The position numbers were made by a program, and so were the translations under genes. From contig CALXSA010000005.1 in the NCBI GenBank assembly GCA_944390995.1, positions 1 through 42,712 of the forward strand: a stretch of DNA of 42,712 nucleotides. The letters are read 5' to 3'. The notes under the pieces are model-generated. The model saw only the letters and a program-made list of their open reading frames with translations. It did no database searches and was not told where the DNA came from. This DNA is from an uncultured Clostridia bacterium (GTDB lineage Bacteria; Bacillota_A; Clostridia; TANB77; CAG-508). Within the stretch, counting starts at the first letter, position 1, and every line of letters begins with the position of its first letter. Of the stretch, positions 2,563-28,960 are shown piece after piece.

Positions 2563-3867
2563 TCATAACTCTAAAAGTCTATCTAAATATTCTACCATGA
2601 ATAGTGGTATATTAATTAAATTATCGTCTTTGTTCAAATTTTTCATTGAAAACCTAACTCTTGTCTTTGGAGCATATTTTTCATTATATACTTTTAGGCT
2701 TGTATTATTAACATTTTCACTAGACTTCACTTCAGTTGGAACAATTTCATTTTTGTATTGAATGATGAAATCTATTTCATATCTATTGTCGAACGCATAA
2801 TAATATGGTTTAATCCCACTTGCTATTAGAGCTTGTAAAACATAGTTTTCTGTTAAAGCCCCTTTAAATTCCTCAAACAACTTATGCCCTTCTACTACAA
2901 TTTTACTGTCTAAGTCAGTCATTTTTCTTAGGAGTCCAACATCATCTAAGTATATCTTAAAGGAAGACAAATCATTGTAGCTAATAAGTGGCATACTAGG
3001 TTTTGTTACATTGTATACTTTGCTTACAATATTAGCATCTTTAAGCCAGTTTAAAGCACTTTCATATTCTCTTGCTCTGGCTCCCTCTTTTGCAACTTGA
3101 TATAAAAACTTCTTGTTTTCTCTTGAAAGTTGCGAAGGAATACTATTCCATATTATAGAAATTCTATTAGCCTCAATATTAGAAGTATGTTTAGAAAAGT
3201 CACTTTCGTAAGCTAACAAAATATCATTTTGTATTTTACTCACTTTTTCAACGTCCTTTTCCTGTACCCAGGAATTCACCGCCTCAGGCATACCACCTAT
3301 AATAAAATATGCTTTCAATTTTTCTTCTAATTGATTAAAAAATATATCAGGAATGTTCTCTATTTTAGTTATTGAATTCATATATTCTACTAAATTCTTG
3401 CATCCATCAGCTTCCAAAAATTCTGTGAAAGTCATTGGATACATATCTAGAAAATTTACTTTTCCAACTGGAAATGAAGTATGTGATAATCGTATTCCAA
3501 GTAATGAACCAGCGCTGATTATATGGTAATTGTTTGCTTCTTCTGCAAAATATTTTAAACAGTTTAATGCATTTGGGCACTCTTGAATTTCATCAAAAAC
3601 AATTAATGTTTTTTCCGGAGTAATTGCCTTTCCATAGATAAAGGCTAGCTGTTCTAATATTCTAAAAGGGTCTTTTGTGTTTTCAAACAAATTATATAAT
3701 TCCGTGTCATGGTCAAAGTTGAAATATGCTACACCCTCATAGTTTTTTTCTCCAAATTCTTTTATAATATATGTCTTTCCAACTTGCCTTGCACCACGTA
3801 TTATCAGTGGTTTTCTATTCTTATTTTCTTTCCAACTTAGCAAATCATTCATTATTTTTCTATACAT
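2563..3867 (-). CDS. AAA-type ATPase with C-terminal DUF4143 (intact copy)
   Basis: About 434 residues. The Walker A motif GARQVGKT lies around residues 25-32 and the Walker B motif LIVFDE near 88-93, followed by an ECP sequence and the sensor-like SAGSLLG; the C-terminal half is DUF4143, ending in a PD-(D/E)xK-like IDFIIQ...VPTEVKSS pattern. This family is common and often multicopy in gut anaerobes and its job is unknown; proposals include toxin-antitoxin or nuclease-like roles. Several ATGs lie close together. The one at 3867 is preferred because GGAG is nine bases ahead of it, while the ATG at 3876 abuts the ribosome binding site. A decayed paralogue lies at 28146-28960, and both are preceded by three-copy repeat arrays. 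Confidence 0.85.
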   Translation of the reverse strand: MYRKIMNDLLSWKENKNRKPLIIRGARQVGKTYIIKEFGEKNYEGVAYFNFDHDTELYNLFENTKDPFRILEQLAFIYGKAITPEKTLIVFDEIQECPNALNCLKYFAEEANNYHIISAGSLLGIRLSHTSFPVGKVNFLDMYPMTFTEFLEADGCKNLVEYMNSITKIENIPDIFFNQLEEKLKAYFIIGGMPEAVNSWVQEKDVEKVSKIQNDILLAYESDFSKHTSNIEANRISIIWNSIPSQLSRENKKFLYQVAKEGARAREYESALNWLKDANIVSKVYNVTKPSMPLISYNDLSSFKIYLDDVGLLRKMTDLDSKIVVEGHKLFEEFKGALTENYVLQALIASGIKPYYYAFDNRYEIDFIIQYKNEIVPTEVKSSENVNNTSLKVYNEKYAPKTRVRFSMKNLNKDDNLINIPLFMVEYLDRLLEL

Positions 3868-3889
3868 TTGCATCATCTCCTACACATAT

Positions 3890-4005: not shown

Positions 4006-4036
4006 CAAGCTTAGTATAAATTTTATACTAAGCTTG
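4006..4036 (-). terminator. Terminator of the SPFH-TIR operon
   Basis: A perfect 15-bp inverted repeat (CAAGCTTAGTATAAA at 4006-4020, complement at 4022-4036) follows the stop at 4044 by a few bases. On the minus strand it runs into TTTGTTTTC. This closes the four-gene operon. Confidence 0.8.
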
Positions 4037-4043
4037 TGCTGTA

Positions 4044-5372
4044 TTAATCAATTTGTTGTAATTCGCTTCCATCTTTCTTCATTTTATAAGTCTCAGTATC
4101 CGCTTGAATTGGTTTCCAAGTTTCAGCTTTATAGTCTGAATATTCTATAGTAAAATAAACATATTCTCCTTCCATATTAATATCTACTCTGTATGAATCT
4201 ACTGTATAGCCTTCTTTTATTTCTTTTGAAAACAATCTTTCTAGGCCTTCATAATCTGTTCCAGCTTTATATTTTGCAATATTGAAACTTTTTCCGTCAG
4301 TTAAAGATGCAGTATAAACATAGCCGTCCTCATCAATTTTATCTCCCATTGAGAATGTATCCTTTGATACCTCATTATTTTTTAGGTTAACCCTATAATC
4401 ATCAAAATATAGGTATCCATCATATATTATTAAATCTGGAGTATAACCAAACTCGCCACTAGCAATAGCTAGTTCTGTATAGTCTGTTCCATCTTTTTTC
4501 ACGCAACAAATTTTACCATAATAAGCCAACATGCCTCCATCTTGAGCTCCTACTGAGTAATATACATAATCTCCATAGCTAACAAAATTATATATTCCAT
4601 AGCTTGAACCAGAATAAGTACTATTTTCCGCTAGTTTTATTTCTTTTTGAGTTTCTTTATTTACACTATATATTGTTATTAATACTTGGGCATCAAGTGT
4701 AGTCTCTTGTTCGTCATAGAAAGTCACAGCATAATATATATACTTTTCATCTGAACCAATTATTTCTTTATTTCCATTTTTTTCTTGAATAGGTATTTTG
4801 ATTTTTATCTCTCCATCTAAACCAGCTATGCCGATTCCTTCTTCATAAAAAAAATATAATAATTGATTATCCAGGTCAAGTTGTGATGCCCTGAAATACG
4901 AATTTTCTAATATGCTTTTTTCATCAGTACCCTCAAGGTTAAAAGATTTTACTTTATTTTCAACAATTAGATACATCCTGTTATTATATATCCAAAAGCC
5001 TTCTAGTCCACCACTTTCCGGCATAAAAGATAATACTTCTACTTTATCTTCGCTTTCATTTTCGTTGTATCTATCTACAACAACCTTAAAGCTTTCATAA
5101 TCAAAGTAAGCTTCATAAATATAACCATTATATGAAAACGTATTTTCTTTAATCTCTACTCCAACTGTCTGCTCAGTAATTGCTTCATTCTCAAAATTAT
5201 TTACGCTTGTTGTTTCATTGCTTATATCTTGAGTTTCCTGTCTTGGCATTAAGAAGTATAATGATATTATAGCAATTATAATCACTATTAAGATTATTAT
5301 TATTGGAAGTATCACTTTTTTTATAGTTTTTCTTCTCTTTTCTTTTTTCGCTATTTTTTCTTCAATATTCAT
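4044..5372 (-). CDS. DUF5050-like single-pass membrane protein
   Basis: About 442 residues. A basic N-terminus (KEKRRKTIKK) precedes one strongly hydrophobic segment at about residues 20-45, then a low-complexity linker, then about 360 residues of repeated short beta-strand blocks such as NNRMYLIVEN, DEKYIYYAV, YGDYVYYSV, YDGYLYFDD and EGEYVYFTIEY. That periodicity matches a beta-propeller of the DUF5050 type. Basic residues before the span predict a cytosolic N-terminus and an extracytoplasmic propeller. The ATG at 5372 overlaps the upstream TIR gene stop as ATGA, with GGAG nine bases ahead, so the two are translationally coupled; an ATG five codons earlier is less well placed. Last gene of the operon. 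Function unknown. Confidence 0.75.
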   Translation of the reverse strand: MNIEEKIAKKEKRRKTIKKVILPIIIILIVIIIAIISLYFLMPRQETQDISNETTSVNNFENEAITEQTVGVEIKENTFSYNGYIYEAYFDYESFKVVVDRYNENESEDKVEVLSFMPESGGLEGFWIYNNRMYLIVENKVKSFNLEGTDEKSILENSYFRASQLDLDNQLLYFFYEEGIGIAGLDGEIKIKIPIQEKNGNKEIIGSDEKYIYYAVTFYDEQETTLDAQVLITIYSVNKETQKEIKLAENSTYSGSSYGIYNFVSYGDYVYYSVGAQDGGMLAYYGKICCVKKDGTDYTELAIASGEFGYTPDLIIYDGYLYFDDYRVNLKNNEVSKDTFSMGDKIDEDGYVYTASLTDGKSFNIAKYKAGTDYEGLERLFSKEIKEGYTVDSYRVDINMEGEYVYFTIEYSDYKAETWKPIQADTETYKMKKDGSELQQID

Positions 5373-7588
5373 TTTACACTTCTCCATTCATTATAAATTT
5401 TTAAGCCTGTCCAAGTGGTTATGCCATTATAGTTGCTGTCTTCATATTGTCCAACTATTGAGATTGTTGCATCTTTCGTTATACCTATTGTAAATGTGTC
5501 TCCAGCATATAGGAAAACAATATCATCAAATGTAGAAAGATTACATTGACCTTCAAAATTCTCTCCTAATGCTTTAATTGTTCCATCTGATTTGATAAAA
5601 GCAAAATGTCCTGAAGAATAATTGTTACTAGACAACTGTATTACGTCAGTTTCATTTTCTATATTTAATACTCCCTCTCCATTCGAACCTGCTCCAACAA
5701 GTGTTCCATCTGCTTTAAGGCCTATAAGGAAATATCTTCCACCTGTCAATTGAACTACGTCATTCCACTCATCTATATTTAATATAGCACTTCTATCAAT
5801 ACCGCTACGAACCAATGTACCATCTTCTTTAAGACCTACTACACCACCAAGACAAGGAAGAACTTGTACAATTTGAGTCCAATCGCTTGTATCTATATCT
5901 CCATTAGTTGTCTCATATTCCTCATATTCTTTATATTGTTGAGTTAATACTGTACCATTGTCTTTTAGTCCAAATATAAATCTATCAGATGCTTTTATTG
6001 ATATTATATTGTTCCATGAACTTAATAGGTCTCTATCTTCTTGATTTTCTTCTTGCATATATACTAGAACAGTACCATCATCTTTAAGCCCAAATATATA
6101 ATCGCTAGAGGTTTCAATTTGTACTATGTTTGAAAAACTATTGAAGACACTACTTAAGTTAAATACACTTCCAATTTCTTTTACAGCATAAATTTTGTTA
6201 GAGTCACCAGATACTGTACCTAAATTTGATATTCGCCAATTATTCTTTGATGTTTCAATTAATTGTTGACTATCTTTATAATCTCCCAACTCATTAAAGG
6301 CTTTTATTGCGCTATAGTATTCCTTATTATTATATTTGTCTAGTGCTGCTTCATATTCATTATTAGGTTTAACCGCAAATGTGTAAACTACTGTTCCTGC
6401 AATGGCTAAGACTAATAGTAGTACAATAAGAACTCTTAGCGTCAGCGTGAGGCTTTTTCTCTTTTCTGTTTTATTCAACTCGTAGCATTTCTCTGCTAAT
6501 TTTGGTGCATCTTTATATGCACCAACTCTTTCAAAATCAGTTGCTAAATTTTTATATATTTTTTTCTTTTCTCTGTGGCTTAGTACTTTTGCGTTTGTTG
6601 TAACTTCCATATTTTTTATAGCATTACTGTAAATTTCTTCTTTTTGTTCATTTGTCATGCCGCTACTCGATATATTTACGTTTTGTTCTACTTTATTAGA
6701 GTTTACAATCTTTAGTACTCCACGAGTTAAATCTTGAATAAAACCTATTTTTTCCATATTTTGCGCTTGTAAGTGTGCAAATTCTTCTGGCAAATCATAT
6801 GCATCCATTTTACTATAACATGGTATTAGTACCTTTTCCTCATCATCTTTGGCTAATGCTAAAAATCTCGACCATTCATTTCTAACCCATACTGCATTAA
6901 AGTTTTCTTTTTTTGTTCCCACAACAAGCATTACCTTAGATGAATTTAATGCCGAGAAAATATATGGCTCATATGCAGTCCCAATTTTATCTTCAAGCGT
7001 TATTCTTGAAAAAAAAACTCTAAGACCTTCTTTTATTAAAGAACTATATATATCTTGTGCTAAAACACTGTCTTCGGTTCTGTCTCCATCTTCGTCAGTC
7101 TCTTTATAACATATAAAAACATCATATGGAGCTTCTTTTCTAGATATTTCCAGAATACCTTTTTGTATCTCATTTATCTTGTTTGCTTCACTCTTATATA
7201 ATTCTCTCTGTTCATCACTGGCATGTTCCAAAGCCTGTTTATAGTTTTCATCAGCTAGAATAGACGCCTTTTGTGTTCTATTGCACGTTGGTATATACTC
7301 TTGTGTGTTTGGGTCTTTAACATATTCCACACCATACTTGCATAATAGCAAAGACCAATATGCTTCTGCATCACTACTATCCTCATTTAATATCATTTCA
7401 TATAGGCCTTCTGCTTTGTCATATTCATTATTTCGCCTAAGATGGTTTGCTCTATCGTATAAATTTGCTATTCTCTCATTTTCTAATTTTGGAAGCGTTT
7501 GTTTTGTTCCACAATATTCACAAGTTGCAATTTTACTATTTGTTTGAACATCTAAGTTACCACCACATATTTTACACTTAAATACCAT
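5369..7588 (-). CDS. Zinc ribbon-TPR-TIR-TM-RCC1-like membrane protein
   Basis: A 739-residue multidomain protein. An N-terminal zinc ribbon has cysteines at 5, 8, 23 and 26. A TPR-like helical stretch covers about 40-130. The TIR domain at about 154-295 begins YDVFICYKETD and contains TAYEPYIFSAL, whose Glu207 sits where NADase TIR domains carry their catalytic glutamate. A transmembrane helix spans about 384-406. A KPNNEY...YKDSQQ linker leads to RCC1-like beta-propeller repeats from 455 to the end (motifs such as GLKDDGTVLV and GLKADGTLVGAG). The TIR part should be cytosolic and the propeller outside. Bacterial TIR proteins commonly cleave NAD or make cyclic ADP-ribose signals in phage defence; that role here is inference. 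The GGAGAAAG site supports the ATG at 7588. It lies third in the operon. Confidence 0.85.
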   Translation of the reverse strand: MVFKCKICGGNLDVQTNSKIATCEYCGTKQTLPKLENERIANLYDRANHLRRNNEYDKAEGLYEMILNEDSSDAEAYWSLLLCKYGVEYVKDPNTQEYIPTCNRTQKASILADENYKQALEHASDEQRELYKSEANKINEIQKGILEISRKEAPYDVFICYKETDEDGDRTEDSVLAQDIYSSLIKEGLRVFFSRITLEDKIGTAYEPYIFSALNSSKVMLVVGTKKENFNAVWVRNEWSRFLALAKDDEEKVLIPCYSKMDAYDLPEEFAHLQAQNMEKIGFIQDLTRGVLKIVNSNKVEQNVNISSSGMTNEQKEEIYSNAIKNMEVTTNAKVLSHREKKKIYKNLATDFERVGAYKDAPKLAEKCYELNKTEKRKSLTLTLRVLIVLLLVLAIAGTVVYTFAVKPNNEYEAALDKYNNKEYYSAIKAFNELGDYKDSQQLIETSKNNWRISNLGTVSGDSNKIYAVKEIGSVFNLSSVFNSFSNIVQIETSSDYIFGLKDDGTVLVYMQEENQEDRDLLSSWNNIISIKASDRFIFGLKDNGTVLTQQYKEYEEYETTNGDIDTSDWTQIVQVLPCLGGVVGLKEDGTLVRSGIDRSAILNIDEWNDVVQLTGGRYFLIGLKADGTLVGAGSNGEGVLNIENETDVIQLSSNNYSSGHFAFIKSDGTIKALGENFEGQCNLSTFDDIVFLYAGDTFTIGITKDATISIVGQYEDSNYNGITTWTGLKIYNEWRSVK

Positions 7589-7610
7589 TTTTCTTTCTCC
7601 TTTAGAATAA

Positions 7611-9329
7611 TTAATCTAGGCTCAACCAAAGACAAGGTCTTACGCCATGCAATCTTGTTACAATATCTCCATCTTCATTAATACTACCATTCTCTGTAAC
7701 ATACATCGCTTTTGTACTATCTTCACCTTGTGTCCTTATCCACCATGACTGACTAGCATTCTTTAGCTCATCATAACTTTCTACTCCTTCTTTAGATAAT
7801 AGGAATACATTATCATTTAATTCTGAGTTTTTAACTATTCTAGATTTTTCGCTACTATCAAAAGAATTATAGAACTCTCCATTTATCCAATTTCTTATTG
7901 CTGAGTTTGTCCACTCAGCCGATTCATATTCTGTATTGTATGCCATTTCATCTATAGGTTCCTTCGTTATCAGTAAAACTTCATCTTCTCTGGTTTCCAA
8001 TATCTGCCATTCAATTGGTTCCTCATTGTACTTGCCAAAATAAACCACATCATTTTCACCAAACAAATTATATATTTCTATTACTTTATCTTTTGAGTCT
8101 TTGTAATTGTCTAGTTTCAAAAATTGTTCTGCTGCTTTTGAATATTCTTTGTTGTCAAGTAACTCTGTTGCATATTCATAAATAACTTCATCTATCTTGT
8201 CTTCACTATCTTTATAAGATTGTATTTCGTTAAATTGTTCTATTGCTTCTTCGTACTGTCCAACCTCAAACAATTCATTTGCATATGTATATATAGATTC
8301 TTGAATTAGGTCTTTACTGTCTTTGTATTCCTCTATTGTTCTAAATTGCTCTACTGCATCTATATATTGTCCATTATTCTTTAGTTCAGATGCATATAAG
8401 TATATTGCTTCCTTGCTCATATCCTCACTATCTTTATAACCAGCCATTTTTTTAAAAGCTTGTTGAGCTTCGAAATATTGTTTGTTTTGAAGAAGTCTCA
8501 TCGCTTGATTATATTCAGTGTTTGGCTGTATAGTCGTAACATATAAAGTAATTCCAATAATAATTAATACTATTATTGTAACTCCTGCAATTGAAACAGT
8601 TTTATTATTAACTGTGTTTTCGCTTGTTTCTCCAACTTCTGGTTTACCCTTGTATAATTTTGCTTTTCTATTACGCTCTGATATTTGGCTTTGTATTTCT
8701 GTTATTTTGGTTTTTAATTGTTCTTCATCATCACTACCATTGTCCATTGCTTCGTTTAATTGTTTTACATTGATTTCAATTTTATTTTCAATATCTGCCA
8801 AATTAGAGTTAGTCATTGGGTCGCTATATCTAATTACTTCTGATAAATCTTGTAACATTTTTTTTAGATTGTTACTGTTTGTTTTCTCTATCATTGTATC
8901 AATTTCCACTTGTAACTCTTTAATAAAGAAAACTTTTTCATTAACTTTATTATCTACTCTTTCAATTTCTTTTTTGCCTGTACTAACCAACACCAGAAGA
9001 ATTGCGGTAATTCCTAATATCACTACATTTATAAGTAATGAAGTCCTATAGTCTGTATTGCAAGCAAGCTCTATTACACTTGCTATAGACTGAACTATAA
9101 AGTATCCCCATACAACCCAGTCCAATGCCAAATTATTAAATTTAGCCTCCATGCTCTTTTTGGTAAGTGTGCATAAAAAGACTACACATGCCAATATAAT
9201 AGATGTCATTGATGAAACGTATACTACCCAGAAATTGTTGTTCCTATCGATTGGTAGTAAAAAGACTAATAAATTGAATAGTGCAATAACTATTACACCT
9301 GTCGATAAAATTGTTTTTTTAGAATTCAT
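7611..9329 (-). CDS. Multi-span membrane protein with coiled coil, TPR-like repeats and DUF6273
   Basis: 572 residues. Three hydrophobic segments lie in the first 105 residues and a charged, coiled-coil-like cytosolic region at about 115-235. A further membrane helix lies near 248-268. Four repeats ending in YKDSEDM, YKDSKDL, YKDSEDK and YKDSKDK at about 275-420 look like TPR or bacterial tetratricopeptide-like units. The C-terminal DUF6273-like domain (VYFGKYNEEPIEWQIL... WWIRTQG ... RPCLWLSLD) is a fold often seen on secreted Clostridia proteins. The region just after the membrane helix resembles the same position of the TIR protein, so the two are probably related or partner proteins. Ribosome binding site GGGGGAG; 22 bp upstream of the TIR gene. 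Function unknown. Confidence 0.75.
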   Translation of the reverse strand: MNSKKTILSTGVIVIALFNLLVFLLPIDRNNNFWVVYVSSMTSIILACVVFLCTLTKKSMEAKFNNLALDWVVWGYFIVQSIASVIELACNTDYRTSLLINVVILGITAILLVLVSTGKKEIERVDNKVNEKVFFIKELQVEIDTMIEKTNSNNLKKMLQDLSEVIRYSDPMTNSNLADIENKIEINVKQLNEAMDNGSDDEEQLKTKITEIQSQISERNRKAKLYKGKPEVGETSENTVNNKTVSIAGVTIIVLIIIGITLYVTTIQPNTEYNQAMRLLQNKQYFEAQQAFKKMAGYKDSEDMSKEAIYLYASELKNNGQYIDAVEQFRTIEEYKDSKDLIQESIYTYANELFEVGQYEEAIEQFNEIQSYKDSEDKIDEVIYEYATELLDNKEYSKAAEQFLKLDNYKDSKDKVIEIYNLFGENDVVYFGKYNEEPIEWQILETREDEVLLITKEPIDEMAYNTEYESAEWTNSAIRNWINGEFYNSFDSSEKSRIVKNSELNDNVFLLSKEGVESYDELKNASQSWWIRTQGEDSTKAMYVTENGSINEDGDIVTRLHGVRPCLWLSLD

Positions 9330-9348
9330 TTTTCTCCCCCTTTTATTT

Positions 9349-10470
9349 TTACAAATTTTCTAATAGTTTCTTCTTTTCATTTTCATATTCTTCATCAGTA
9401 ATAATTCCATTTTCTTTCATGATTTTTAACTTCTCCAATTTTTTCTTAAAAGCTGTCATTTCTTCGTCGTCATCTTTCTTATCTTCTTTGCTGTTGTCTA
9501 TTTCCCTAAAAGTATCTCCAACTGTATTTCCTATAGTCCCAGCTACACCTCCCATTATTCCAAGACCAATACCCAAGTTTGAGAAATCACCTACTCCTTC
9601 ATTTTGAGCAATTTTCTCTGCGACATCATAAGAACGTTCTTGTTGATAAGTATATCCTTCAATTTCACGTTTTTTTGCTTGAGCCTCTGCTTCAATCACT
9701 TTACGTCTTGCTTCGGTTTCTTGGTCTATAATTCCAACTTGTTGACGTAAATTTGCCTCTGCAACATCAGAATATTGTCTAATATGTAATTCTTTAAACT
9801 TTTCATAAGCAGCTTCACCATCTGGTTTTGCTATTGTAGTTACGAAAAAATGTTGTAAAGATAAGCCATACTCAGCAAAATCGCTTTTTAATAATTTTTC
9901 AATATTCTCAGAAATTTCTGCCATATGTGAATCAACTTCAAAAATTGAAAATGGTGCTTTTTGCATAGTTTCTGCTATATATGGTTTTATTCGTCCCATT
10001 AGGAAAGCTCTTAGTTTTACTAGTAGTTCTGCATTGTTAAGCTCTTTTTCTGTTCCGACTACTTTTACTAGTAGTTTTCTTGAATCTTCTACCTTAAAAA
10101 TAAGTTCTCCACTTGCTCCGATTTGTAATGGGAAATTATACTTTGGTTCCATATATTGAACTTGTGAGTTTGTTCCCCATTTCATAGACATTTGTTCAGC
10201 CTTATTTATAAAATAAATTTCACAATGATAAGGTGTTTCGCCACCAGTAGATTTATTAAAAAATTTACTTAAAAGTGGTATATTTTGAGTTTCTAATGTA
10301 TATCTTCCTGGTCCAAATAAGTCTAATGCCTGACCATTCATAAAAAACACAACTTCTTGTGACTCGTGAACAATTAACTGTGTACCCGTGTTAAAATCTT
10401 CAACAGGATGTTTCCAAATTAAACTGTTGGTGGTTTCATCATCTTTAATTACATCTACAATTTTTGCCAT
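9349..10470 (-). CDS. SPFH-domain protein (YdjI-like) with C-terminal SHOCT motif
   Basis: 373 residues. The central part (about 20-230) resembles the SPFH/virion-core-like family to which Bacillus YdjI belongs, with GPGRYTL and a YGLSLQHFFVTTIAKPD block. A coiled-coil segment rich in Glu, Ala and Lys follows (about 230-280), then a Gly-rich stretch and an acidic linker. The last 35 residues, LEKLKIMKENGIITDEEYE, match the SHOCT oligomerisation motif. SPFH proteins form membrane-associated rings or scaffolds, and YdjI belongs to an envelope-stress operon. It is the promoter-proximal gene of the TIR operon. No transmembrane segment is evident, so it probably docks on membrane partners. Start supported by AAGGAG. 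Confidence 0.85.
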   Translation of the reverse strand: MAKIVDVIKDDETTNSLIWKHPVEDFNTGTQLIVHESQEVVFFMNGQALDLFGPGRYTLETQNIPLLSKFFNKSTGGETPYHCEIYFINKAEQMSMKWGTNSQVQYMEPKYNFPLQIGASGELIFKVEDSRKLLVKVVGTEKELNNAELLVKLRAFLMGRIKPYIAETMQKAPFSIFEVDSHMAEISENIEKLLKSDFAEYGLSLQHFFVTTIAKPDGEAAYEKFKELHIRQYSDVAEANLRQQVGIIDQETEARRKVIEAEAQAKKREIEGYTYQQERSYDVAEKIAQNEGVGDFSNLGIGLGIMGGVAGTIGNTVGDTFREIDNSKEDKKDDDEEMTAFKKKLEKLKIMKENGIITDEEYENEKKKLLENL

Positions 10471-10501
10471 ATTTTTTTCTCCTTTTTTACTTTTTTGTCT
10501 T

Positions 10502-10529
10502 ATTATATCATATTAAATTTTGTTTTCAA
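10502..10529 (-). promoter_or_regulatory. Promoter of the SPFH-TIR operon
   Basis: TTGAAA (10524-10529) and TATAAT (10502-10507), 16 bases apart, lie 30-60 bases before the SPFH start. It resembles a strong sigma-A promoter. No other promoter was seen within the four-gene set, whose gaps are 22 bp or less. Confidence 0.7.
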
Positions 10530-19020: not shown

Positions 19021-19857
19021 TCAAAATGTACTTTCAAGTGCTACCACAAGTCCATCTCTCTTCCACTCTTTTGCGAGTTTGAGAGCTCTGTTGTTGTTTG
19101 CATGAATGTCTATGCCTTTTTCGCGCAGCCAAGCAAACGCCTTCATGTTGTTGCGCCAAATAGCCTCAATGAGAACTTCATTGGTCAGCTCTGCACCAGC
19201 CTGATACAAAATTTCTGCTGTATCTAGATGGTTATAGCTAATTGCTTGTACCATGCATTCACTGTTTTGAGTCTTTGGATCAGCTCCATAATTCAGTGCA
19301 TACTTGATAACATCATTCATCCCTTGCTTCGAAAGAATGATTAGAGCTTGGCTATCTCTTGCTTTTACATCAGCTCCAAGCCACAGCAACCATTTTACGG
19401 TGTCTGCATGCCCATGTTCTGCTGCAATGATAAGCGGTTCGTTGTTGTTTGCCTGCACATCCGCTCCTTTGGAAGCCAGATAAAAGACAATGTCAGAATG
19501 GCCATTTCTCGCTGCAAAAATAAGTGCTGCGCTATCAGATGCCTTGACGTCCCCTCCTGCGTTATGCAATTTGACAACATAGTTAAACAAACCTTGTTCT
19601 GCTGCATAAATCAGTGCACGACTTCCTGCTAAGCTCGGATTTGCTCCTAAAGAAAGATACAAATCAACCAGTTCGTATTCTTCTCTCACAAAGGCTCCAA
19701 GCAGAGCCCGGCTGATAGAAGCCTTATACTTGTCATCCTGTCGAATTCTTTTCATGAGTAAATGTTCTTCATACATTTGCTCCCGTTCTTCAATGGGAAG
19801 CTGAAGAATATTGAACATTATCCGCTGCTCTCTTGGTAAATACATTTTGTCCTTCAT
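19021..19857 (-). CDS. Ankyrin-repeat protein of atypical base composition
   Basis: About 278 residues with roughly six to seven ankyrin-like repeats of about 33 residues, for example SDIVFYLASKGADVQANN, ADTVKWLLWLGADVKARD and NDVIKYALNYGADPKTQN, preceded by a charged helical N-terminus. No signal peptide or membrane span is visible, so it is probably cytosolic and protein-binding. The start at 19857 follows GAGGAGG; the frame is open farther upstream without a ribosome binding site. Its GC content (about 45-48% in sampled lines) is far above its neighbours, which suggests horizontal acquisition. It has its own terminator and probably its own promoter. Partner unknown. Confidence 0.8.
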   Translation of the reverse strand: MKDKMYLPREQRIMFNILQLPIEEREQMYEEHLLMKRIRQDDKYKASISRALLGAFVREEYELVDLYLSLGANPSLAGSRALIYAAEQGLFNYVVKLHNAGGDVKASDSAALIFAARNGHSDIVFYLASKGADVQANNNEPLIIAAEHGHADTVKWLLWLGADVKARDSQALIILSKQGMNDVIKYALNYGADPKTQNSECMVQAISYNHLDTAEILYQAGAELTNEVLIEAIWRNNMKAFAWLREKGIDIHANNNRALKLAKEWKRDGLVVALESTF

Positions 19858-19918
19858 AACATTTTTCCTCCTCAAAAAAATTATTTCATAAGGACTTGAA
19901 CGGTTTGCAACATAATAT

Positions 19919-19924
19919 ATTATA
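19919..19924 (-). promoter_or_regulatory. Possible -10 element for the ankyrin gene
   Basis: A TATAAT (minus strand) stands about 60 bases before the start. The -35 region is only T-rich with no good TTGACA match, so this is tentative. Confidence 0.3.
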
Positions 19925-19977
19925 TCATGAATTTTCAAAAAAATAAACCATTCCACCTAAACTTTATGTTAATAGGA

Positions 19978-28145: not shown

Positions 28146-28960
28146 TTATTTTATACAAAAGGCTGCATATAACGGAATAGCCTTAATGTTATTTTCAAAG
28201 CCGAAATTTCTAGTTGAAAACCTTATAGCGTATTTAGGCTTATACTCTTTGATATACATGTTTAAGCTTACTGATTTCACATTGTTTCCGCTCTTTACTT
28301 CTATAGGTATAATTCCATCTTCTTCACTATATAAAACAAAGTCAATTTCTGCACTTCTATTTGAGGTCCAGTAATATAATGATTCTCCTTTAGAAGTTAA
28401 CTCTTGCGCAATATAATTTTCTGTAATAGCTCCTTTGTAGATAAAAGTTCTATCTAGCATTATGTCTGGAAATTTTATTTCACTCATATTTGTAAGTATT
28501 CCAACGTCACTTAAATACAATTTAAAATTGTTCTCATCAATATAAACTTTTAAAGGTATCTCCATTCGCTTCGAATTGTAATTTATTAAAACCATTTTTG
28601 AAGCAACTAACCAATCAATAGAGCTTTCGTATTTTCTTTTCCTGCCTCCTTCTTCTATATAGTTATACTGGAAATTTTTGTTATCTTTAGCCAATTGGCT
28701 TGGAATATTTTTATATACTTTCTCAATTTTGACTGTCTCTAAATTGCTACTAACATATTTCTTCATATCAGCCACATACATATCTTTTATGTCTGATAAA
28801 ATATGAGAGTCAAACTTTAATATATCTAGGTCATTTTCTATAAAATTGTTTACTGCCTCTGGCATTCCGCCAACACATAAATACTTTTTGTATAAATTAA
28901 TGGCTTCTTCATTCCTGTTTTTTTCCAATCTTGTAACTTTTTCTCAAATAATCTCTGCAT
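28146..28960 (-). pseudogene. Decayed AAA/DUF4143 protein lacking its ATPase core
   Basis: The ATG at 28960 with a GGAGGG site encodes MQRLFEKKLQDWKK, a typical start of the family. At a run of seven A residues (about 28918-28924) the frame changes, and the sequence jumps to EEAINLYKKYLCVGGMPEAV, the start of the C-terminal half. About 190 residues including Walker A and Walker B are gone. The rest, DUF4143 with IDFVLYSEEDGIIPIEVKSG, stays open to 28146. It aligns by eye to the intact copy at 2563-3867. Remnant with both an internal deletion and a frameshift, or a domain that survives on its own. Confidence 0.8.

Follow-up and report, generated by a model that had tools for sequence, protein, structure and literature searches.

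We analyzed a 42,712-nucleotide stretch of DNA from an uncultured Clostridia bacterium (contig CALXSA010000005.1 of GenBank assembly GCA_944390995.1), called the window below, and in it a minus-strand operon at positions 4044 to 10529. An earlier note, made from the sequence alone, had described four tightly packed genes here; the open reading frames (ORFs) are indeed present at 9349-10470, 7611-9329, 5369-7588 and 4044-5387, and a purine-rich stretch resembling a ribosome-binding site precedes each of them. The SPFH/SHOCT call for gene 1 was borne out by Pfam matches to Band_7_1 (E value 4e-41) and SHOCT (4e-7), the TPR/DUF6273 call for gene 2 by DUF6273 (1e-15) and TPR-like repeats, and the combination of TIR and RCC1 in gene 3 by TIR_2 (8e-10) and RCC1_2 (2e-11). 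Genes 1 to 3 make up the core:

9349..10470, minus strand: gene 1, SPFH protein of 373 amino acids with Band_7_1 and SHOCT (Pfam), core subunit
8643..9329, minus strand: gene 2 residues 1-229, YSDP membrane subunit, core (alignment with stand-alone proteins)
7611..8642, minus strand: gene 2 residues 230-572, further helix, TPR and DUF6273 (Pfam DUF6273 at 7985-7620, hydropathy, predicted structure)
5369..7588, minus strand: gene 3, 739 amino acids, zinc ribbon (Cys5, 8, 23, 26), TPR, TIR, helix and RCC1-like repeats, core receptor

The conserved SPFH-YSDP-TIR gene set

Gene 2 is a composite. Its residues 1-229 align with 39 stand-alone proteins of about 232 amino acids from other loci, which rules out the view that it is merely a TPR/DUF6273 protein. 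In this part, the YSDP subunit, an R-Y-S-D-P motif occurs in at least 90% of the aligned rows, and Arg219 and Lys227 are invariant; the YSDP-only stretch has no Pfam match, and its profile found no informative relative among solved structures. Hydropathy marks segments at residues 7-25, 35-53, 97-115 and 240-258, the last directly preceding the TPR/DUF6273 part, and the predicted structure has four long N-terminal helices. Fusion of YSDP to a helix, TPR and DUF6273 belongs to the window's lineage, and a protein search found the fused form kept in 32 relatives (42-57% identical, with alignments spanning 97% of the length or more). The entries for P0005, P0126 and P0214 (longest contig 8236 each) and for P0006 and P0128 (6961) suggest, by their equal lengths, that some fusion and TIR relatives may lie on the same contigs. 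Because DUF6273 is reported, in excerpts of PMC10743442 and PMC11792537, as a C-type-lectin-like, retroelement-diversified domain of phage proteins, a binding role for the C-terminal domain of gene 2 is likely by analogy.

The idea that the operon is conserved as a set stood for genes 1 to 3 and fell for gene 4, which has 7 homologues in a protein search at E up to 0.001. The TIR protein, by the same kind of search, was matched by at least 7999 scored candidates. A pattern scan of a species-genome collection gave at least 518 TIR relatives, of which the best 78 loci were kept, many of them cut by contig ends. An SPFH gene is present in 52 of the 78, each time on the TIR strand; the next labeled gene after it is YSDP-like in 48 of these 52, and the gap from SPFH to the next labeled gene is 72 bases or less in 48 of the 52. 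Profiles run on non-overlapping ORFs found SPFH in 52/78 loci, YSDP in 50/78 and both in 49/78; the two 52-locus SPFH sets differ, in that L002 enters by a distant match and L071 is lost once overlapping ORFs are removed. Among the 49 loci with at least 4.5 kilobases (kb) upstream of the first TIR gene, 35 have SPFH. Distances between partners are also correlated across 47 loci, with values, from which host relatedness is not removed, of 0.61 for SPFH-YSDP and 0.43 for YSDP-TIR (each reached by 0 of 999 permutations).

A separate sample comprised 196 genomes of the class to which the L002 genome belongs. Matches to the YSDP profile occurred in 17 of them, to the TIR profile in 25 (11 below 1e-50) and to Band_7_1 in 99 (92 above cut-off). 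After 2 of 20 YSDP matches with E above 1e-5 had been dropped, 16 of the 18 below 1e-7 had a Band_7_1 match no more than about 3 kb away, with contig and strand shared; the other two are in G073, on a 3.1-kb contig, and in G001, where YSDP adjoins TIR and SPFH is on a different contig. For the TIR counts, 13 of the 25 genomes, which have weak matches only (best E 1.3e-11 to 1e-3), and G025 (1e-21) were dropped; SPFH stands beside TIR in 8 of the 11 strong-TIR genomes, and in G121 the two lie at two contig ends.

Other proteins can take the place of TIR beside SPFH-YSDP: L129 and L130 encode a zinc-ribbon/DUF6591 protein there, L135 a short one with zinc ribbon and TPR, and L136 and L137 small proteins without a match. 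Because several pairs carry such proteins, SPFH-YSDP seems to be a platform whose clients can be exchanged. Locus L134, too, has an SPFH-YSDP pair without TIR, with another zinc-ribbon protein.

The TIR protein: a constant half and exchanged sensors

Four features of gene 3 matter for what follows:

6755..7120, minus strand: TIR domain, residues 157-278 (Pfam TIR_2 8e-10, above its cut-off; predicted strands and helices)
6875..6877, minus strand: codon of Glu238, the NADase-position glutamate, with Trp234 four residues earlier (alignments; excerpt of PMC7075850)
6377..6433, minus strand: predicted membrane helix, residues 386-404 (hydropathy 2.75)
5450..6214, minus strand: RCC1-like C-terminal repeats, about residues 459-713 (Pfam, predicted structure)

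The earlier note had placed Glu207 in the position of the catalytic glutamate of TIR enzymes that cleave nicotinamide adenine dinucleotide (NAD), and this assignment has to be moved. Compared with solved structures, a TIR-only profile matched a Toll-like receptor (TLR) chain best (E = 2e-4) and flax L6 weakly (0.09 and 0.12); in these alignments Glu238 pairs with the conserved glutamate in both the TLR chain and the flax L6 TIR, and Glu207 lies opposite a flax L6 glycine. Two other searches of solved structures were set aside: the whole TIR protein as a single sequence gave no matches, and a first profile, before the TIR-only one gave useful alignments, found mainly designed TPR proteins. According to PMC7075850, the NADase glutamate lies between strands C and D, and a ligand-binding tryptophan precedes it by four residues; in the predicted structure, Glu238 is at the start of a helix between strands 219-223 and 253-257. 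The gene 3 model shows the strand-helix order of a TIR domain, with a mean predicted local distance difference test score (pLDDT) of 82 overall and values of only 50-84 within the TIR.

Trp234 and Glu238 are present in all 106 covering rows of the TIR alignment. The 78 loci had been fetched with two short peptide patterns, and because one of them spans Glu238, we recounted on TIR copies not used for fetching: Glu238 is present in 34 of 34 covering rows, and 23 further rows do not cover the site. Glu207 (6968-6970) is also invariant in 106/106 covering rows, though outside the NADase position, and may be important for something else.

The C-termini of 103 TIR proteins carry varied domains (E up to 1e-4): DUF6273 in 53, RCC1 in 18, LRR_5 in 7, Listeria-Bacteroides repeats in 4 and YARHG in 2. 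Neighboring copies in locus L062 are 90-98% identical in amino acids as far as roughly residue 400, near the membrane helix; beyond this point the figure is 18-36%. Their nucleotide identity falls from 82-96% to 30-46%. In L036, L070 and L139, identity drops soon after the TIR domain; copies in L031 form a mosaic, those in L042 and L066 fall more gradually, and those in L011, L018 and L068 stay similar. The sharp drops are consistent with a TIR half that is kept while recombination brings in other sensors; the gradual cases could be explained by divergence alone. L139 (G103:C9) holds a cluster of several TIR copies whose N-termini are near-identical and whose C-termini differ; small unrelated genes separate the copies, and one ORF resembles a transposase by eye.

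Three of the operon's proteins had been described as having cytosolic N-termini and extracytoplasmic C-terminal domains. Because hydropathy finds helices in genes 2, 3 and 4, the order, first a helix and then a large C-terminal domain, stands for all three; the side of the membrane we infer. The same analysis finds, after residue 280, one helix in 78 of the 103 TIR proteins, two in 2 and none in 23. A clear helix is missing from 14 of 24 TIR proteins with a long SPFH partner versus 4 of 56 with a short one (Fisher p = 2e-6, where weak helices count as none and copies within one locus are not independent). At least four members combine TIR, one helix and leucine-rich repeats (LRRs), L027 and L061 by motif and L067 and L071 by Pfam; SPFH is in the fetched stretch for L027 and L071 but not for L061 and L067, and the genome of L061 has no Band_7_1 match.

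Patchy presence and the surroundings of the operon

Presence of the system is patchy among close relatives. Within the family of G001, a strong match to the TIR half was found in one of 59 genomes, G001 itself; G249 has a partial match and two others weak ones. G248, whose metG is the closest match (82%, locus L150), has an intact metG region and keeps the window's metG, a 112-amino-acid gene and three further shared genes in order (by eye glmM, argS and pfk). Past metG, other genes stand in place of the operon block, and the G248 genome has neither a Band_7_1 nor a TIR match. Because G248 keeps the neighboring order without the block, gene order indicates that either the window's lineage acquired the block or the G248 lineage lost it. 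An ankyrin-repeat-like ORF (by eye) lies at 19021-19956 on the minus strand of the window; L150 has no counterpart of it at the equivalent position.

By eye, tyrosine-recombinase-like ORFs lie directly upstream of SPFH in three genomes, at L140 (3667-4611), L133 (2744-3589) and L145 (1138-1980), and are a possible mobility route. A flank scan covered 144 of 172 flanking ORFs of SPFH loci (71 upstream, 73 downstream; L002 and some short ORFs were omitted). Phage_integrase was found in just 2 of the 71 upstream neighbors of the main SPFH loci. Among the best 25 of 71 and the best 25 of 84 Pfam families in the flanks, almost all are single matches and none is a reverse transcriptase. PADLOC models at E up to 1e-10 matched, upstream, PDC-S04, SoFic and ThsA in one protein each and, downstream, PDC-S48 and DEDDh in two each and AbiEi, pAgo and Aga_SIR2 in one each. 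Among viral contigs, 30 stretches fit a pattern, and none of them encodes a relative of the TIR protein. Nor is the operon clearly marked as foreign by composition: its GC content is 0.31, compared with 0.33 and 0.29 in adjoining DNA, and at third codon positions 0.18-0.23, compared with 0.24-0.26 alongside.

Three further features complete the operon:

4044..5372, minus strand: gene 4, accessory, one N-terminal helix, 442 amino acids from start 5372, outside the conserved core
10502..10529, minus strand: candidate promoter (TTGAAA, 16, TATAAT with TG before; 11/12 matches)
4006..4036, minus strand: candidate terminator hairpin (14 pairs; begins 8 bases past gene 4)

For gene 4, position 5372, whose ATG overlaps the gene 3 stop, is a more likely start than 5387, because the resulting 442 amino acids equal the length of the near-identical homologue P0210. 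The DUF5050 label once given to this gene could not be kept, as Pfam gave no DUF5050 match at E up to 0.1 and no family above cut-off. No relative of gene 4 was found in the 78 TIR loci at E 1e-5; this absence and the few homologues rule it out as a core member and mark it, by these searches, as lineage-specific. The single promoter and single terminator proposed to enclose the operon fit by position, and the classes of site to which they belong are at or near chance level. Between 3700 and 10800 we found 37 promoter-like sites versus 38.7 expected, shuffled sequence being about as rich, although 10529-10502 is one of the two best and well placed; terminator-like sites numbered 2 versus 1.5 expected. 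Adjoining the operon at 2563-3876 (minus strand) is an AAA_14/DUF4143 ATPase, which matches the PADLOC candidate PDC-S01 (2e-182) and is probably separate from it; a shorter second DUF4143-like ORF lies, by eye, at 28146-28928.

A proposed membrane-scaffolded TIR receptor and its nearest relatives

The sequences show four things: the gene set is conserved, its presence is patchy, the TIR halves are constant while sensors are exchanged, and a glutamate occupies the NADase position. We tentatively favor, at somewhat less than an even chance, a patchily distributed, membrane-scaffolded TIR receptor system with one member in the window; its role is probably defensive. The cell topology, docking, trigger, NAD cleavage and defensive role that we infer would run as follows. 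Gene 1 and residues 1-229 of gene 2 would make up a membrane platform on the inner side, to which gene 3 would dock through its zinc-ribbon/TPR part. The TIR domain would be cytosolic, with one helix, here and in most members, spanning the membrane to the C-terminal sensor. Binding or disturbance of the sensor would cluster the TIR domains, and clustered TIRs could cleave NAD+ or make a nucleotide signal, leading to growth stop or cell death. Exchange of sensors on conserved TIR halves would serve changing ligands, most likely components of phages or rival cells. We prefer a scaffolded TIR-enzyme receptor because of the operon and module anatomy and because clustering is an established principle of TIR action; we favor sensing of phages or rival cells on the ground that exchanged sensors and a patchy distribution are in keeping with an arms race. 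It is conceivable, though doubtful, that the system amounts to a Toll-receptor-like bacterial repertoire, in which an SPFH/YSDP platform would carry receptor families whose TIR enzyme inside the cell is constant and whose ectodomains (C-type-lectin-like DUF6273, RCC1, LRR and Listeria-Bacteroides repeats) are exchanged through recombination near the membrane boundary, so that gut Clostridia would have a changing immune repertoire at their surface to meet phages or rivals.

Several findings weigh against the receptor system. Of the 49 loci that extend 4.5 kb or more upstream of the first TIR gene, 14 lack SPFH; of 9 genomes without SPFH near TIR, 8 have Band_7_1 elsewhere and 1 has none; G119 has a strong TIR but neither an SPFH nor a YSDP partner; and the SPFH-TIR distance correlation across the 47 loci is weak (0.22, reached by 13 of 999 permutations). 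The 23 of 103 TIR proteins without a clear post-TIR helix include 8 of the 18 with RCC1; therefore the sensor is not always outside. Model confidence within the TIR part is low to moderate (pLDDT 50-84), a glutamate at position 75 also occurs in TIRs without reported activity (excerpt of PMC7075850), and defense genes are few in the flanks, where counts without a control set decide nothing.

The strongest rival, which we nevertheless consider rather unlikely, is an envelope-stress or membrane-fluidity module, in which SPFH and YSDP would act like YdjI with its partners and TIR would be a stress signaller. Gene 1 does belong to the same Pfam SPFH family, Band_7_1, as the match in the Bacillus subtilis control genome, and YdjI in Bacillus is described in PMC8581546 as recruiting PspA with the membrane proteins YdjG/H and affecting membrane fluidity, a further point against the receptor system. 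The SPFH-YSDP pairs found next to zinc-ribbon proteins that lack TIR would suit such a module as well. Sensor exchange and a strong match in just one of 59 family genomes, however, would be odd for a housekeeping stress system, and Pfam found no PspA-like or YdjG/H-like (TPM) domain in genes 1-4.

Less probable again is a TIR that carries out no NAD chemistry and, like animal TLR adaptors, serves only as a scaffold for assembly or signaling. The best solved match of the TIR profile is, after all, a TLR chain, the NADase glutamate is frequent in TIR groups without known activity (PMC7075850, in part), and some TIRs work through assembly alone according to an excerpt of PMC9153377; on the other side, Trp234 and Glu238 are both invariant, and the conserved core encodes no partner enzyme. 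It is improbable that in every member the C-terminal domain detects a ligand inside the cell, the helix being an anchor only: RCC1 and DUF6273 are found on helix-less TIR proteins too, and such proteins are associated with long SPFH, but in the window a clear helix precedes the C-terminal domain in all three proteins that have one, and 52 of 56 TIR proteins with short SPFH have a clear helix.

TIR domains link the immunity of bacteria, plants and animals, but the bacterial TIR systems known to us are cytosolic. In a conserved bacterial set, a TIR with an NADase-position glutamate inside the cell joined to an exchangeable sensor outside, sometimes an LRR, would correspond to TIR immunity of the receptor type. 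If the receptor system is real, SPFH scaffolds would gain a possible role in immune-type signaling, and the DUF6273 fold of variable phage proteins would be connected with cell-encoded sensors.

By kind we class this as a TIR-effector system; its platform and receptor layout was not found described in the open-license PubMed Central (PMC) literature. There, a search by title and abstract, with subscription papers and preprints outside its scope, found no paper on the SPFH-YSDP-TIR set, and in PMC7159879 SPFH occurs just in the reference list. No strong match of the core to one system was found in PADLOC 2.0.0 (2023): SPFH has no match, gene 2 reaches 0.06, TIR matches only PDC-S66 (7e-7), and gene 4 matches PD-T4-6 (7e-4) over its helix region. 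Among relatives, the SPFH and stand-alone YSDP proteins tested have none, and the TIR proteins tested have weak or no matches. On this sequence evidence the three-gene core, consisting of SPFH, a YSDP membrane protein and one or more zinc-ribbon/TPR/TIR proteins and found patchily in gut Clostridia, is a widespread module without a PADLOC name.

Thoeris and other bacterial TIR defense systems, such as TIR-pAgo and TIR-bearing CBASS, use a TIR effector with a glutamate in the NADase position and resemble gene 3 in this respect. The operon has no Thoeris partner (up to E 0.1, PADLOC gave no ThsA/ThsB-type model for genes 1-4 or for the gene next to them), and its architecture is that of a membrane receptor. 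Membrane-located defense systems acting at phage entry are known, and Kiwa and Zorya are alike in their proposed sensing of that entry at the membrane (PMC13190303, in part); genes 1-4 differ in having no PADLOC sequence match to them, and TIR replaces their effectors. The B. subtilis system of YdjI with YdjG/YdjH and PspA shares a Band_7_1 SPFH protein beside membrane proteins (PMC8581546), whereas the operon lacks a PspA/TPM partner and has a YSDP subunit and a TIR receptor. Phage DUF6273 proteins contain the same Pfam domain as a target of diversity-generating retroelements (PMC10743442 and PMC11792537, both in part); here, by contrast, the domain is cell-encoded, on TIR or YSDP proteins. 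Compared with animal Toll-like receptors, the chain order is reversed, a zinc ribbon and TPR stand in front, SPFH is a partner and LRR is a minority sensor (7/103), but the layout is alike: a single span with TIR on one side and the sensor on the other, and in four members LRRs after the helix.

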